Source: Bacillota bacterium (GTDB lineage: Bacteria > Bacillota > Clostridia > Christensenellales > QALW01). Taken from it: a stretch of 35,152 nucleotides of DNA. A model generated the notes under the pieces. That model did no database searches. It saw nothing but the letters and a program-made list of their open reading frames with translations, and was not told the DNA's origin. The position numbers were made by a program, and so were the translations under genes. Each line of letters starts with the position of its first letter. Position 1 is the first letter of the stretch. The stretch lies in assembly GCA_029007865.1 (NCBI GenBank), contig JAQXIQ010000040.1:1-35152 (forward strand). The letters are read 5' to 3'. Below are positions 3,655-35,152 of the stretch, in pieces.

Positions 3655-6372
3655 ATGTCAGAACCATTAAGAGCAACGGCGCTCAAATGCGAATACTTTG
3701 ACCGCCCGCTGGGCATAGATACGCCGTCCCCCCGCATATCCTGGATCCCGGTTCAGGAGGGGCGCGCACGCCGCCAGACCGGCTACCGCATCGTGGTGGG
3801 CACCATGCACGATGTTGTGGCCATAGGCGAGGGCAATATGTGGGACTCCGGCTTCGTTCGCTCGCGCAGCTGTTCAAATATAGTTTATGACGGCGCTCCC
3901 CTGCAGAGCGGCACCCGCTATTATTTCAGCGTACAGCTCCTGGACGCAGACGGCGTAAAGGGCCCCATAAGCGAGGTCTCATATTTTGAAACCGCCCTTA
4001 TGCACCAGAGCGACTGGAAGGGCTGCTTTATCGGCATGCCGGACCAGGGGCGCAATCAGCCGGCACAGCTTATGCGCCGCGAGTTCACGCTGGAAAAGGA
4101 CATTGCAAGGGCCAGAGCATACGTTGCGGGGCTGGGCTACTACGAGCTGCATATAAACGGCAGACGGGTAGGCGACCGCGTAATGGAGCCCGGCTTTACC
4201 GACTACTCCAAGCGCATTTTTTACTCCACTTACGATGTTACCGACTTTCTGGTAAAGGGCGAAAACTGCGTGGGCGCGCATGTGGGCTCGGGCTGGTATA
4301 CCCATCCCTGCTTTATCCTGCAGCTCAACGTGGAGTTTACCGACGGCACCCGCACCAGCGTTTATACCGAGCCCGGCAAATGGGATATGTTTATAAGCCC
4401 GGTGACCCACACCAACATCTATATGGGAGAAATGTACGACACCCGCTTTGAGGTGCCGGGCTGGGATACCGTCAGTCCCGGGCTTATCGACCGCTTCCCA
4501 AGACAGGGCTGGAAGGTCTATGCCATTTTCACGCCCTCCCCGTTCGACGCGCAGGAGAACCCGGTGTATGCCGACGTATACCACCGCTCCTTTGTCGCCC
4601 TGGAAGCCGCTCATCCCGGCGGAAAGCTGGAGGCGCAGCCCATAGAGCCCATACGCGTGGTACGCACGGTGCATCCGGTGCGCATCACAAGTCCCAAGGA
4701 GGGCATATACGTCGCCGATTTCGGCGAGAATGTCGCCGGCTGGGTACGCTTCCGCACCGTTGCTGAGGAGGGCGACGTGGTGGCCCTGCGCCATTCCGAG
4801 ATACTCTTTGACGACGGCACCATCAACCAGAGCTATCTGATAGCCGCGGAGCTCTACGGCAGCGGCGCCCAGATGCAGACGGATTATTACCGTCTCAGAA
4901 AGGGCGTAAACGAATTCGAGCCCAAGTTCACCTATCACGGCTTCCGCTTCGTACAGCTTGAGGGCTTCCGCTCCATGCCGGATGCCAAGGATATATGCGC
5001 CTGCGTAGTGCATTCCGACGTTAAGCAGCGCGGCTTCTTCAGCTGCTCCGATATGCTTATTAACACGCTGCAGGACAATATTCTGCGCACCGAAACGGAC
5101 AACCTGCACTCCATTCCCACCGACTGCCCGCAGCGCGACGAGCGCATGGGCTGGCTCAACGATATGACGGTGCGCTATGAGGAGGCCGTTTATAACTTTG
5201 ACATGGTGCATCTGTACGAAAAGTGGGCCCAGGATATTTCCGATGCGCAGGAGCCCGTCTCCGGCGCCATTCCGGACACCGCGCCCCTCAAGCGCGGACA
5301 GCGCCCCGGCGACCCCTGCACCGCTTCGTATCTGCTGGTGTCCAACGGTCTTCTTGATCACTGCGGCGATATACGCACCGTAGAGCGCCAGTACGAAAGC
5401 TATAAAAAGTGGGTCAATTACCTGTACCGCCAGAGCATTGACGGCATACTGACCTACAGCTACTGGGGTGACTGGGCAGGCCCCAAGGATTACACCACCC
5501 GCCAGATGTGCGACGCAATAAGCGCCATAACGCCGGGCGAGCTTATAAGCACCGGATATCTGTACTATGAGCTCAGGCTTATGGAAAAGTACGCTCAGCT
5601 TGTCAGAAAGGAGGACGCCGCGGATTTTGCCGCCCGCGCCCAGGAGATAAAGCAGGCCTTTAACGATAAATTCTTTAACGAAGAAAAGGGCAGCTACTCC
5701 ACCGGCTCTCAGGCCTGCAACGCCTTCGCCCTCTTTTTGGACGTCGTGCCCCAGGGCAGAGAGGCCGAGGTGGCAGCGGCGCTCAATGCCGATGTTGTAG
5801 CACACGATTATCACCTGACTACCGGCAACCTCTGCACCAAGTATGTGCCGGAGCAGCTTACCCGCTACGGCTATACCGACACCGTTTTCAAGCTCATCAC
5901 CCAGACCACATATCCCAGCTGGGGCTATATGATAAGCATGGGCGCCACAACTATATGGGAGCGTTGGGAATATGCCACCTCTCAGGGCATGAACTCCCAC
6001 AACCACCCCATGTACGCCTCCATAAGCGCTTATTTCTACAAGTACCTGGCAGGCATCACGGTGGGCGGCGCTTCCGGCTTTGACAGCTTTACTCTCTGCC
6101 CGTACATACCCACCGGCCTGGAATACGCCAAGGCAGAGCTGGACACCGTCCGCGGCAGGGTGTCAAGCGCCTGGAAAAAGGAGGACGGCGGCATAACCTT
6201 TGACTTTGAGATCCCCGTGGGCAGCGAGGCGGAATGCCTGCTCCCCGAGGGCGAGATAACGGAAAACGGTGCGCCTCTGCAGTCCGGCAGCGGCATCAGC
6301 GTCATAGGCCCCAGACAGGGACGAATGGCACTGCGCCTGGGCTCCGGCAAATATACCTTCAAAGTGCGTTAA
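3655..6372 (+). CDS. Alpha-L-rhamnosidase, glycoside hydrolase family 78
   Basis: A 905-residue inverting exo-glycosidase that removes terminal alpha-L-rhamnose from plant glycosides and polysaccharides. The N-terminus (KCEYFDRPLGIDTPSPRISW) is the usual GH78 beta-sandwich. A carbohydrate-binding-like N-domain follows (about 135-310), then a second beta domain, the (alpha/alpha)6 catalytic barrel (about 450-790) and a C-terminal beta domain. The catalytic region contains DCPQRDERMGW at 490-500, with acidic residues typical of the active site, and the TIWERWE segment at 766-772 with the likely general-base Glu769. There is no signal peptide or anchor, so it should act in the cytoplasm on imported rhamnosides. 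It has its own promoter and a strong terminator. The nearby class II aldolase could handle a deoxy-sugar product. Confidence 0.94.
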   Translation: MSEPLRATALKCEYFDRPLGIDTPSPRISWIPVQEGRARRQTGYRIVVGTMHDVVAIGEGNMWDSGFVRSRSCSNIVYDGAPLQSGTRYYFSVQLLDADGVKGPISEVSYFETALMHQSDWKGCFIGMPDQGRNQPAQLMRREFTLEKDIARARAYVAGLGYYELHINGRRVGDRVMEPGFTDYSKRIFYSTYDVTDFLVKGENCVGAHVGSGWYTHPCFILQLNVEFTDGTRTSVYTEPGKWDMFISPVTHTNIYMGEMYDTRFEVPGWDTVSPGLIDRFPRQGWKVYAIFTPSPFDAQENPVYADVYHRSFVALEAAHPGGKLEAQPIEPIRVVRTVHPVRITSPKEGIYVADFGENVAGWVRFRTVAEEGDVVALRHSEILFDDGTINQSYLIAAELYGSGAQMQTDYYRLRKGVNEFEPKFTYHGFRFVQLEGFRSMPDAKDICACVVHSDVKQRGFFSCSDMLINTLQDNILRTETDNLHSIPTDCPQRDERMGWLNDMTVRYEEAVYNFDMVHLYEKWAQDISDAQEPVSGAIPDTAPLKRGQRPGDPCTASYLLVSNGLLDHCGDIRTVERQYESYKKWVNYLYRQSIDGILTYSYWGDWAGPKDYTTRQMCDAISAITPGELISTGYLYYELRLMEKYAQLVRKEDAADFAARAQEIKQAFNDKFFNEEKGSYSTGSQACNAFALFLDVVPQGREAEVAAALNADVVAHDYHLTTGNLCTKYVPEQLTRYGYTDTVFKLITQTTYPSWGYMISMGATTIWERWEYATSQGMNSHNHPMYASISAYFYKYLAGITVGGASGFDSFTLCPYIPTGLEYAKAELDTVRGRVSSAWKKEDGGITFDFEIPVGSEAECLLPEGEITENGAPLQSGSGISVIGPRQGRMALRLGSGKYTFKVR

Positions 6373-11937: not shown

Positions 11938-12024
11938 GCCGGAATGATGGAATTGGCAGACGTGCCGGACTCAAAATCCGGTGGTAGCGATACCGTGCGG
12001 GTTCGACCCCCGCTTCCGGCACCA
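11938..12024 (+). tRNA. tRNA-Leu (anticodon CAA), with encoded CCA
   Basis: The acceptor stem GCCGGAA (11938-11944) pairs with TTCCGGC (12014-12020), followed by ACCA. The anticodon stem CCGGA/TCCGG encloses loop CTCAAAA, giving anticodon CAA, which reads UUG. A long variable arm (TGGTAGCGATACCG region) and the T arm GCGGG-TTCGACC-CCCGC confirm a class II leucine tRNA of 87 bases. It is expressed alone and ends at a terminator. Confidence 0.97.
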
Positions 12025-12025
12025 G

Positions 12026-12066
12026 AAAAGAACCCGCATTTGTCTACGACAACTGTGGGTTCTTTT
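12026..12066 (+). terminator. Terminator of tRNA-Leu
   Basis: AAAAGAACCC (12026-12035) pairs with GGGTTCTTTT (12057-12066), immediately after the CCA end. The right arm supplies the T-run. Confidence 0.8.
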
Positions 12067-12070
12067 CAAC

Positions 12071-12233
12071 TAAGTGTGCCTTGCGGCACGAGAAGAGCAC
12101 TTCGCGCGTGAAGTGATGCTTCGCATCGCGAAGTGCCCGCTGGCGTGAGTGGCACACTTAACTTAACTTTGTGCGAAGCACAAAACTTCACGGCGGCATC
12201 GCCGCAGCTTCACTTGGCGAAGCCAAACTTCAC
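12071..12233. repeat. Hairpin array with TTCAC spacers (array 1)
   Basis: An outer 10-bp perfect stem pairs 12071-12080 with 12151-12160 and encloses nested hairpins, including GATGC-TTC-GCATC at 12115-12127 preceded by GTGAAGT. Three small hairpins with 3-base loops follow: TTTGTGC-GAA-GCACAAA (12168-12184), GCGGC-ATC-GCCGC (12193-12205) and TTGGC-GAA-GCCAA (12214-12226). After them come ACTTCAC (12185), GCTTCAC (12207) and ACTTCAC (12227). The stems differ in sequence and the heptamer is conserved. There is no reading frame. I do not recognise a named repeat family. Confidence 0.8.
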
Positions 12234-12302
12234 GAAATGAGGAGTGCCTATAAATTTTCGAAATAATAAGTTCGATAAAACGGAATTTGTGGAGGTATTC
12301 AT

Positions 12303-12380
12303 ATGAAGTATTGTGTAAAATGCAAGAGGGGATTTGCAAACGAAGAAGAAAAATGTCCAGTCTGCGGAACAAAACTCTGA
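12303..12380 (+). CDS. 25-residue zinc-ribbon microprotein (or truncated gene start)
   Basis: The frame ATG-TGA encodes 25 residues with two metal-binding knuckles, CVKC at residues 4-7 and CPVCG at 18-22. This is the minimal zinc-ribbon spacing of C-x2-C-x10-C-x2-C. A perfect GGAGG at 12291-12295 sits 7 bases before ATG, stronger evidence than length alone. The same motif often forms the N-terminus of larger Firmicute proteins (zinc ribbon plus membrane or other domain), so this could be the surviving head of a longer gene cut by the hairpin array that begins 13 bases after the stop. Either way it is flanked on both sides by hairpin arrays. No function is assigned. Confidence 0.6.
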   Translation: MKYCVKCKRGFANEEEKCPVCGTKL

Positions 12381-12392
12381 GAGACCGCGTGC

Positions 12393-12498
12393 GTGATGCA
12401 GACTTCGTCTGTGATGCACGCCTTCGGCGCGCGAGCGAAACGCATCGCATCATTTATCACTTATCACGGCGCAGCCGCATCACCTATCACTTATTCAC
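12393..12498. repeat. Hairpin array with GTGAT/ATCAC spacers (array 2)
   Basis: GTGATGC at 12393-12399, hairpin AGAC-TTC-GTCT at 12400-12410, and GTGATGC again at 12411-12417 are followed by the inverted form: GCATCAT (12447), TTATCAC (12454 and 12461), GCATCAC (12477), CTATCAC (12484) and TTATTCAC (12491). Between them are GC-rich mini-palindromes such as CGCCTTCGGCG. The heptamers point toward each other, so the whole may fold as one branched structure. It begins 13 bases after the zinc-ribbon microgene. Confidence 0.7.
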
Positions 12499-12523
12499 AA
12501 ATTAACCGAATTTACGATATAAT
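12494..12523 (+). promoter_or_regulatory. Probable promoter of the GH127 gene
   Basis: TTCACA (12494-12499), an 18-base spacer and a perfect TATAAT (12518-12523) lie about 135 bases before the GH127 start. The -35 overlaps the last TTCAC of hairpin array 2. Between promoter and gene a short hairpin (CTCCGA with TCGGAG, near 12550-12568) sits in the leader. Confidence 0.5.
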
Positions 12524-12659
12524 CGCAAAAAAATGAGGTGCATATTATCTCCGAATACGGACTCGGAGACCTCTTAATGAAATTACTATTGACTTACCCA
12601 CAACACTGTACTACAATCTAATGCAGCACATATTAACGCAATTAAAAGGAGAATACAGG

Positions 12660-34798: not shown

Positions 34799-34905
34799 GG
34801 CTCAGGCCCGCAGTTACAATTGCTTAAGCAGAAATCCCGGCATCAGTCTGCCCGCAGGCCGTCCGAGGGGTGACTTCCGTAGAGCAGTATACTCGAACTG
34901 ACAGG
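34799..34905. other. Noncoding spacer after serS
   Basis: No gene is supported. A minus-strand frame runs through it and the hairpin array beyond, but it has no ribosome site and low coding character. The sequence TGACTTCCGTAGAGCAGTAT leads directly into the terminator and hairpin array that follow. Confidence 0.4.
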
Positions 34906-34944
34906 AAAAGGACGAAGAATTGCAAAAATTCCTCGTCCTTTTTT
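34906..34944 (+). terminator. Intrinsic terminator after serS
   Basis: AAAAGGACGA with a GAATT extension pairs with AATTC and TCGTCCTTTT, followed by TTC. It is the last element before the hairpin array. Confidence 0.8.
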
Positions 34945-34957
34945 CTTGACAAGCACT

Positions 34958-35152
34958 GCATTTGTAGACACAAATGCATATAGTGAAATGTTTTGCTTCC
35001 GCAAAACGTGAAATAATGTGCTACCGCACATTGTGAAATATCTCGCCTTGCTCGATGTGAAATGAAATTTGCCCACGTCCGCGCAAGCGGACATTTCACA
35101 TTTGCGGAGCAAATATTTCACCGCAAAGCGATTTCACTTGCCCGAAAGGGCA
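34958..35152. repeat. GTGAAAT-spaced hairpin array (array 3), truncated by the window edge
   Basis: Four GTGAAAT heptamers start at 34983, 35008, 35033 and 35057, spaced 25, 25 and 24 bases. They separate 17-18-base palindromes of unrelated sequence, such as GTTTTGC-TTCC-GCAAAAC and AATGTGC-TACC-GCACATT. After GTCCGC-GCAA-GCGGAC (near 35077) the motif is inverted: ATTTCAC at 35093, 35115 and 35131, spaced by ATTTGC-GGA-GCAAAT, CGCAAAGCG and TTGCCCGAAAGGGCA. The array starts with GCATTTGT-AGAC-ACAAATGC at 34958-34977. The forward and inverted heptamers can pair, giving a branched structure. I know no named family for it. Confidence 0.85.

Follow-up and report, generated by a model that had tools for sequence, protein, structure and literature searches.

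A heptamer array with palindromic spacers beside serS in a Clostridia genome is probably a small mobile element, linked to S23 proteins, that lacks the ORF

The window analyzed here, a stretch of 35,152 nucleotides from a Clostridia genome (G000), ends inside an array of short palindromes placed between serS and other protein genes. The heptamer GTGAAAT occurs on the plus strand at positions 34983, 35008, 35033, and 35057 (spacings of 25, 25, and 24 nucleotides) and as its complement, ATTTCAC, at positions 35093, 35115, and 35131, an inversion at the center that the first-pass annotation had described and that these coordinates bear out. The array holds 7 of the 10 GTGAAAT copies in the 35-kb window; the whole-window expectation is 3.7, and 10 copies were reached in 0 of 100 shuffles. 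Across the whole genome, the pattern GTGAAAT-spacer-GTGAAAT was found 25 times, and a reversed control pattern 0 times. Coordinates, shuffles, and control all agree with the original description of a constant heptamer separated by variable palindromes.

The palindromic spacers have the arms GTTTTGC/GCAAAAC, AATGTGC/GCACATT, ATTTGC/GCAAAT, CGC/GCG, and TGCCC/GGGCA. The third spacer of the left arm, ATCTCGCCTTGCTCGAT, is an imperfect palindrome that reads ATC-GA-GC..GC-GA-GAT on the minus strand, with a tandem GA/GA mismatch. The palindrome length originally given, 17 to 18 bases, does not hold for the right arm, where the palindromes measure 15 and 9 bp. A CRISPR was rejected, as it had been at first pass: CRISPR repeats are about 21 to 50 bp long with nonpalindromic spacers, whereas the constant unit here measures only 7 bp and the spacers are palindromic.

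The last 141 bp of the window are the first 141 bp of another contig of the same genome (C76), which indicates that the array spans an assembly break; we infer the junction between the two from this overlap, and the full unit is the window joined to C76. The resulting dispersed element, delimited by the abrupt ends of a 97% identical copy in another genome (L109) and by near-identical copies in a genus mate (G001), is approximately 290 bp long, with its sense on the minus strand, and comprises positions 34901 to 35152 of the window (252 bp) and positions 142 to 179 of C76 (38 bp, to TCTGCGTACC). The repeated unit thus begins at 34901 and not at 34958, where the array had been annotated to start. 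In sense order, a full element consists of a hairpin (usually a terminator), CAACGAAAT, hp1, GTGAAAT, hp2, GTGAAAT, hp3, GTGAAAT, hp4, the center, ATTTCAC, hp5, ATTTCAC, hp6, ATTTCAC, hp7, and a last ATTTCAC followed by T.

Read along the plus strand, the window copy opens with its 3' end, a terminator-like hairpin (AAAAGGACGAAGAATTGC..ATTCCTCGTCCTTTTTT, 34906 to 34945, no strand assigned) that is conserved in L109, followed by a hairpin adjoining the array (GCATTTG..CAAATGC, 34958 to 34977, no strand assigned) that is found in L109 with one change. Next come an arm with four GTGAAAT copies and three hairpin spacers, which are hp7, hp6, and hp5 of the sense strand (34983 to 35063, plus strand), and the center, defined from sequence and covariation, which holds hp4, GTCCGC..GCGGAC, and GAAATTTGCCC, a segment that is the complement of the hp1 strand (35064 to 35092, minus strand). 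The other arm, first in sense order (35088 to 35152, minus strand), contains three GTGAAAT copies (at 35131, 35115, and 35093), hp3, hp2, and part of hp1, and is cut by the contig end. Outside the element, AAATCCCGGCATCA (34832 to 34845, plus strand) is possibly the 5' half of the serS terminator, the other half, GATGCCGGTTTTTT, lying on C76 beyond the element; the two would form an 8-bp stem, as read from the sequence. The window copy has no S23 (PF05635) ORF, as is the case for most GTGAAAT copies.

This first arm matched the Rfam family Gut-1 (RF01706) on the minus strand at 50.4 bits, above the gathering cutoff of 50 bits. A complete Gut-1 copy at C76 positions 77 to 151 scored 64.5 bits, matches over the cutoff occurred at seven places in the genome, and the other arm of the window array gave a match below threshold (34981 to 35068, plus strand, 41.6 bits). 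A 2010 study (Weinberg et al., PMC2864571) presented Gut-1 as an RNA that probably stands alone and that had been seen in no other source than human gut metagenomes. The first arm resembles it in both sequence and structure, and the RF01706 model spans that arm only. The unit that we describe differs from Gut-1 as filed in that it is two-armed, has a terminator, has an S23 gene when complete, and is sited after tRNAs. It also differs in habitat, since contigs from roe deer, sheep, goat, and cattle are among the matches listed for the array DNA. We found no earlier description of a link between Gut-1 and S23 in the open-access literature.

Across 24 elements, from which two near-identical copies had been removed, the arms of hp1, hp5, hp6, and hp7 paired with their own partners at 0.85 to 0.97 of positions, versus 0.41 to 0.61 with the arms of other elements (P < 5e-4 each, in shuffles that ignore relatedness). 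A segment in the center is a second complement of the hp1 5' strand and covaries with it in the same way (0.95 versus 0.59), which means that two helices compete for one strand. On the sense strand, hp5 has often retained its tandem GA/GA mismatch (ATCGA..GAGAT). Fold prediction for the near-identical L109 copy gave zipped heptamers with side hairpins (z score of −6.4 as RNA and −7.0 as DNA), the very arrangement that the first-pass annotation had suggested for the opposed heptamers. That annotation had also proposed covariation of the variable arms as a check on function, and an unconserved heptamer with drifting arms as a mark of decay; the arms covary across relatives, and together with the shuffles and the reversed-pattern control this rules out chance or decay. 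Wobble pairs in the stems were not enriched in a count confined to the spacers (5 G·T, 4 A·C, and 456 Watson-Crick pairs; a wider count, biased by heptamer edges, was discarded), so there is no RNA signature that would point to selection at the RNA level.

Genes for PF05635, the 23S rRNA intervening-sequence protein, in this genome and its relatives had hairpin arrays immediately upstream on inspection. The regions upstream of 81 S23 genes contained 3.6 hairpins per 300 bp, and the 270 control windows contained 1.2 (P = 8e-18). A two-armed score, for a k-mer with repeats in one arm and its complement in the other, reached 5.5 or more in 35 of the 81 upstream regions and in 1 of the 270 controls; the other 46 regions scored below 5.5, several of which show arrays by eye. 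Both detectors, the hairpin density and the two-armed score, were chosen or tuned after examples had been seen. At least nine kinds of heptamer were found (GTGAAAT, GTGAAGT, GTGATGT, GCGATAT, ATGATG, ATGAAG, TGAATT, GTTATA, and TGTAAT), each time with the complement in the opposite arm. The S23 subfamily tracks the heptamer type (Mantel r = 0.56, P < 5e-4), and the two are inherited together. Eight GTGAAAT elements run into an S23 ORF that starts 21 to 76 nucleotides past the last ATTTCAC. Among the S23 genes of GTGAAAT elements, PF05635 was confirmed in five of five tested and TIGR02436 in two of two, and one matches a solved structure (2RLD). In a set of 391 genomes of the class, an S23 gene was present in 26 of 30 genomes with similar array DNA, compared with 86 of 361 others (P = 7e-12).

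Outside the source genome, 17 of the 23 GTGAAAT elements checked lie directly downstream of a tRNA, with ten isotypes represented. The junction is usually CCA followed by GAAAA, and at many tRNAs a terminator hairpin comes directly after CCA. A tRNA end lies 140 to 300 bp upstream in 24 of 83 S23 loci. At the tmRNA gene of G000, a GTGAAGT element is located exactly after CCA; no element was seen at this site in 29 relatives inspected, G001 included, although the sequence from one of the 29 stops right behind the tmRNA. Terminator halves flank the element in some copies, clearly on contig C105 and plausibly in the window and L109, as if the element had entered a terminator loop. Two stacked elements occur at one tRNA-Leu in the window (11938 to 12580). 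The tRNA (11938 to 12024) is followed directly after CCA by a GTGAAGT-family element (12025 to 12233, plus strand), with a weak Gut-1 match at 12180 to 12256, and then by a decayed GTGATGC-family element with a promoter-like TATAAT and an apparent remnant of an S23 start (12380 to 12580, plus strand, identified by eye against locus L181); a 27-amino-acid zinc-ribbon-like ORF is present there too. At another locus (L140, 1591 to 1990), two different GTGAAAT elements stand in tandem after a tRNA-Trp.

In L109, from a sheep Clostridia genome, a 97% identical copy of this unit (290 bp, TCTGCGTACC to TTTTCCTGT in the window) lies between unrelated genes and has abrupt ends. The best serS match of that genome is 33% identical, versus 80 to 86% within the family of the window. 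A longer segment might have been transferred and account for this identity, although homology stops at the element ends. In the genus mate G001, each of three near-identical copies has other flanking sequence, and 3' of serS neither G001 nor G003 has the window element. These comparisons of filled and empty sites are between species, in genomes that are all drafts or MAGs; no movement was seen between strains of one species, and no target-site duplication was apparent at the ends of the window or L109 element. Among the matches listed in a scan of a genome collection, two-armed arrays occurred at 26 loci, of which 25 bear Clostridia names. A plasmid or phage vehicle was rejected, as plasmid and phage records had no match for the array; three IMG/VR contigs do hold two-armed arrays. 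One of these, a provirus contig (L403, 12967 to 13239), has a GTGAAAT element after a tRNA-Ser, together with an S23 frame that is truncated. Several contig ends of G000 (on C29, C64, C111, C118, C44, and C65) fall inside GTGATGT-family elements, which therefore seem to break the assembly.

The first-pass annotation had left the choice between a structured RNA, a protein-binding array, and a mobile element, and dispersal, the filled site, and co-occurrence across genomes support the last best. The Gut-1 match, the S23 gene of full copies, the position at tRNA and tmRNA 3' ends, and the alternative heptamers go beyond that annotation. A functional noncoding RNA, that is, Gut-1 as filed, would be made by transcription running on from the tRNA or starting at a promoter of the array itself, and would have a job in the host, with S23 as a host RNP partner. 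The strong covariation, the helices that compete for one strand, and the tandem GA/GA of hp5 on the sense strand are what such an RNA might look like, and Weinberg et al. (PMC2864571) rated Gut-1 a certain RNA. We nonetheless consider this reading unlikely, given the patchy presence at orthologous sites, the several near-identical copies at different loci of one genome, the many heptamer families, the lack of G·U enrichment in stems, and the terminator that usually separates tRNA and array. A host role at tRNA genes, as a compound terminator or as a buffer of the 3' end, would account for the terminator hairpins straight after CCA; with the tmRNA site working without an element in 29 relatives, and copies distant from tRNAs in the window, L109, and G001, we give it very little credence.

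If folded arrays were integron-like attachment sites at which cargo genes are exchanged, the array-gene-array layouts on contig C91 of the source genome, and in L068 and L091, where two copies enclose other ORFs, would be expected, but at most loci a single array is followed by S23, and we regard this idea as highly improbable. In another reading, the arrays are REP/BIME-like repeats that a RAYT transposase (Y1, HUH) would move, guided by the heptamer beside each hairpin. Such repeats are likewise extragenic, numerous, and arranged as inverted pairs of hairpins with a short constant sequence. However, no Y1 transposase (Y1_Tnp, PF01797) was found in the drafts G000, G001, G002, and G003, of which the first three have arrays, the sequence of the array hairpins is free to vary, and the linkage is to S23; we therefore rejected this candidate, to which we assign scarcely any probability. 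A resident reverse transcriptase was also rejected, none having been found in the source genome.

We conclude that the window array likely represents a small mobile element of the S23/intervening-sequence (IVS) type, in a copy without the ORF: the same sequence occurs at different loci with abrupt ends, and both filled and empty sites exist. Elements of this kind, dispersed in gut Clostridia, are probably selfish, and we think that the window array is a nonautonomous copy. A complete element consists of a terminator hairpin, a two-armed hairpin array with a family-specific heptamer, a promoter-like sequence, and a gene that encodes an S23 four-helix bundle, and lies directly 3' of a tRNA or tmRNA gene or near terminators. 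The host tRNA would remain intact, because the attachment is at its CCA end and a terminator comes with the element. We postulate that the sense strand folds such that the heptamers zip and the hairpins protrude, that the S23 protein, a homologue of the accessory protein Avd of diversity-generating retroelements (DGRs), binds the folded array, and that bound S23 helps to copy or insert the element, including gene-less copies in trans; an RNA or single-stranded DNA intermediate and the insertion chemistry would be further parts of this model.

The IVSs of 23S rRNA with S23p, for example in Coxiella, are considered selfish (PMC4990558). The Clostridia element, when complete, resembles them in having a PF05635 gene and an inverted-repeat, RNA-like structure at a stable-RNA gene, but it lies outside rRNA, 3' of tRNA or tmRNA genes or at terminators, and it has a multihairpin heptamer array and its own promoter-like sequence. 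PF05635 resembles Avd in fold and family (PMC10053308); unlike in DGRs, no reverse transcriptase was found in G000 (a 92%-complete draft) or G001. More broadly, we offer the tentative speculation that a selfish class with an Avd-like S23 and a heptamer-zipped array, and with no known transposase or reverse transcriptase, may insert at the mature CCA ends of tRNAs of any isotype and tmRNA and into terminator loops, that the 23S rRNA IVSs may be its rRNA-dwelling branch, and that the strand with two partners may be a conformational switch. The element brings together two orphan families, the RNA Gut-1 and the protein S23/23S-IVP, in one unit with a defined anatomy and target, and it provides a concrete substrate for testing the role of S23 proteins. 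It suggests that 23S rRNA intervening sequences are relatives of a wider class at tRNA ends, and it would explain why Gut-1 looks like an RNA without a regulated gene or known host.

A member of the same order (G033) contains TAAAGTG-spacer-TAAAGTG, the reversed control pattern, approximately 147 times; this is an unrelated repeat array. On contig C91, a 97-amino-acid ORF with no NCBIfam match lies directly 3' of the S23 gene (L036, 632 to 925). At L091 (4290 to 5183), two GTGAAAT elements surround a leucine-rich-repeat ORF (4562 to 4966, HupY/LrrG-like) in the place where an S23 gene would be expected.
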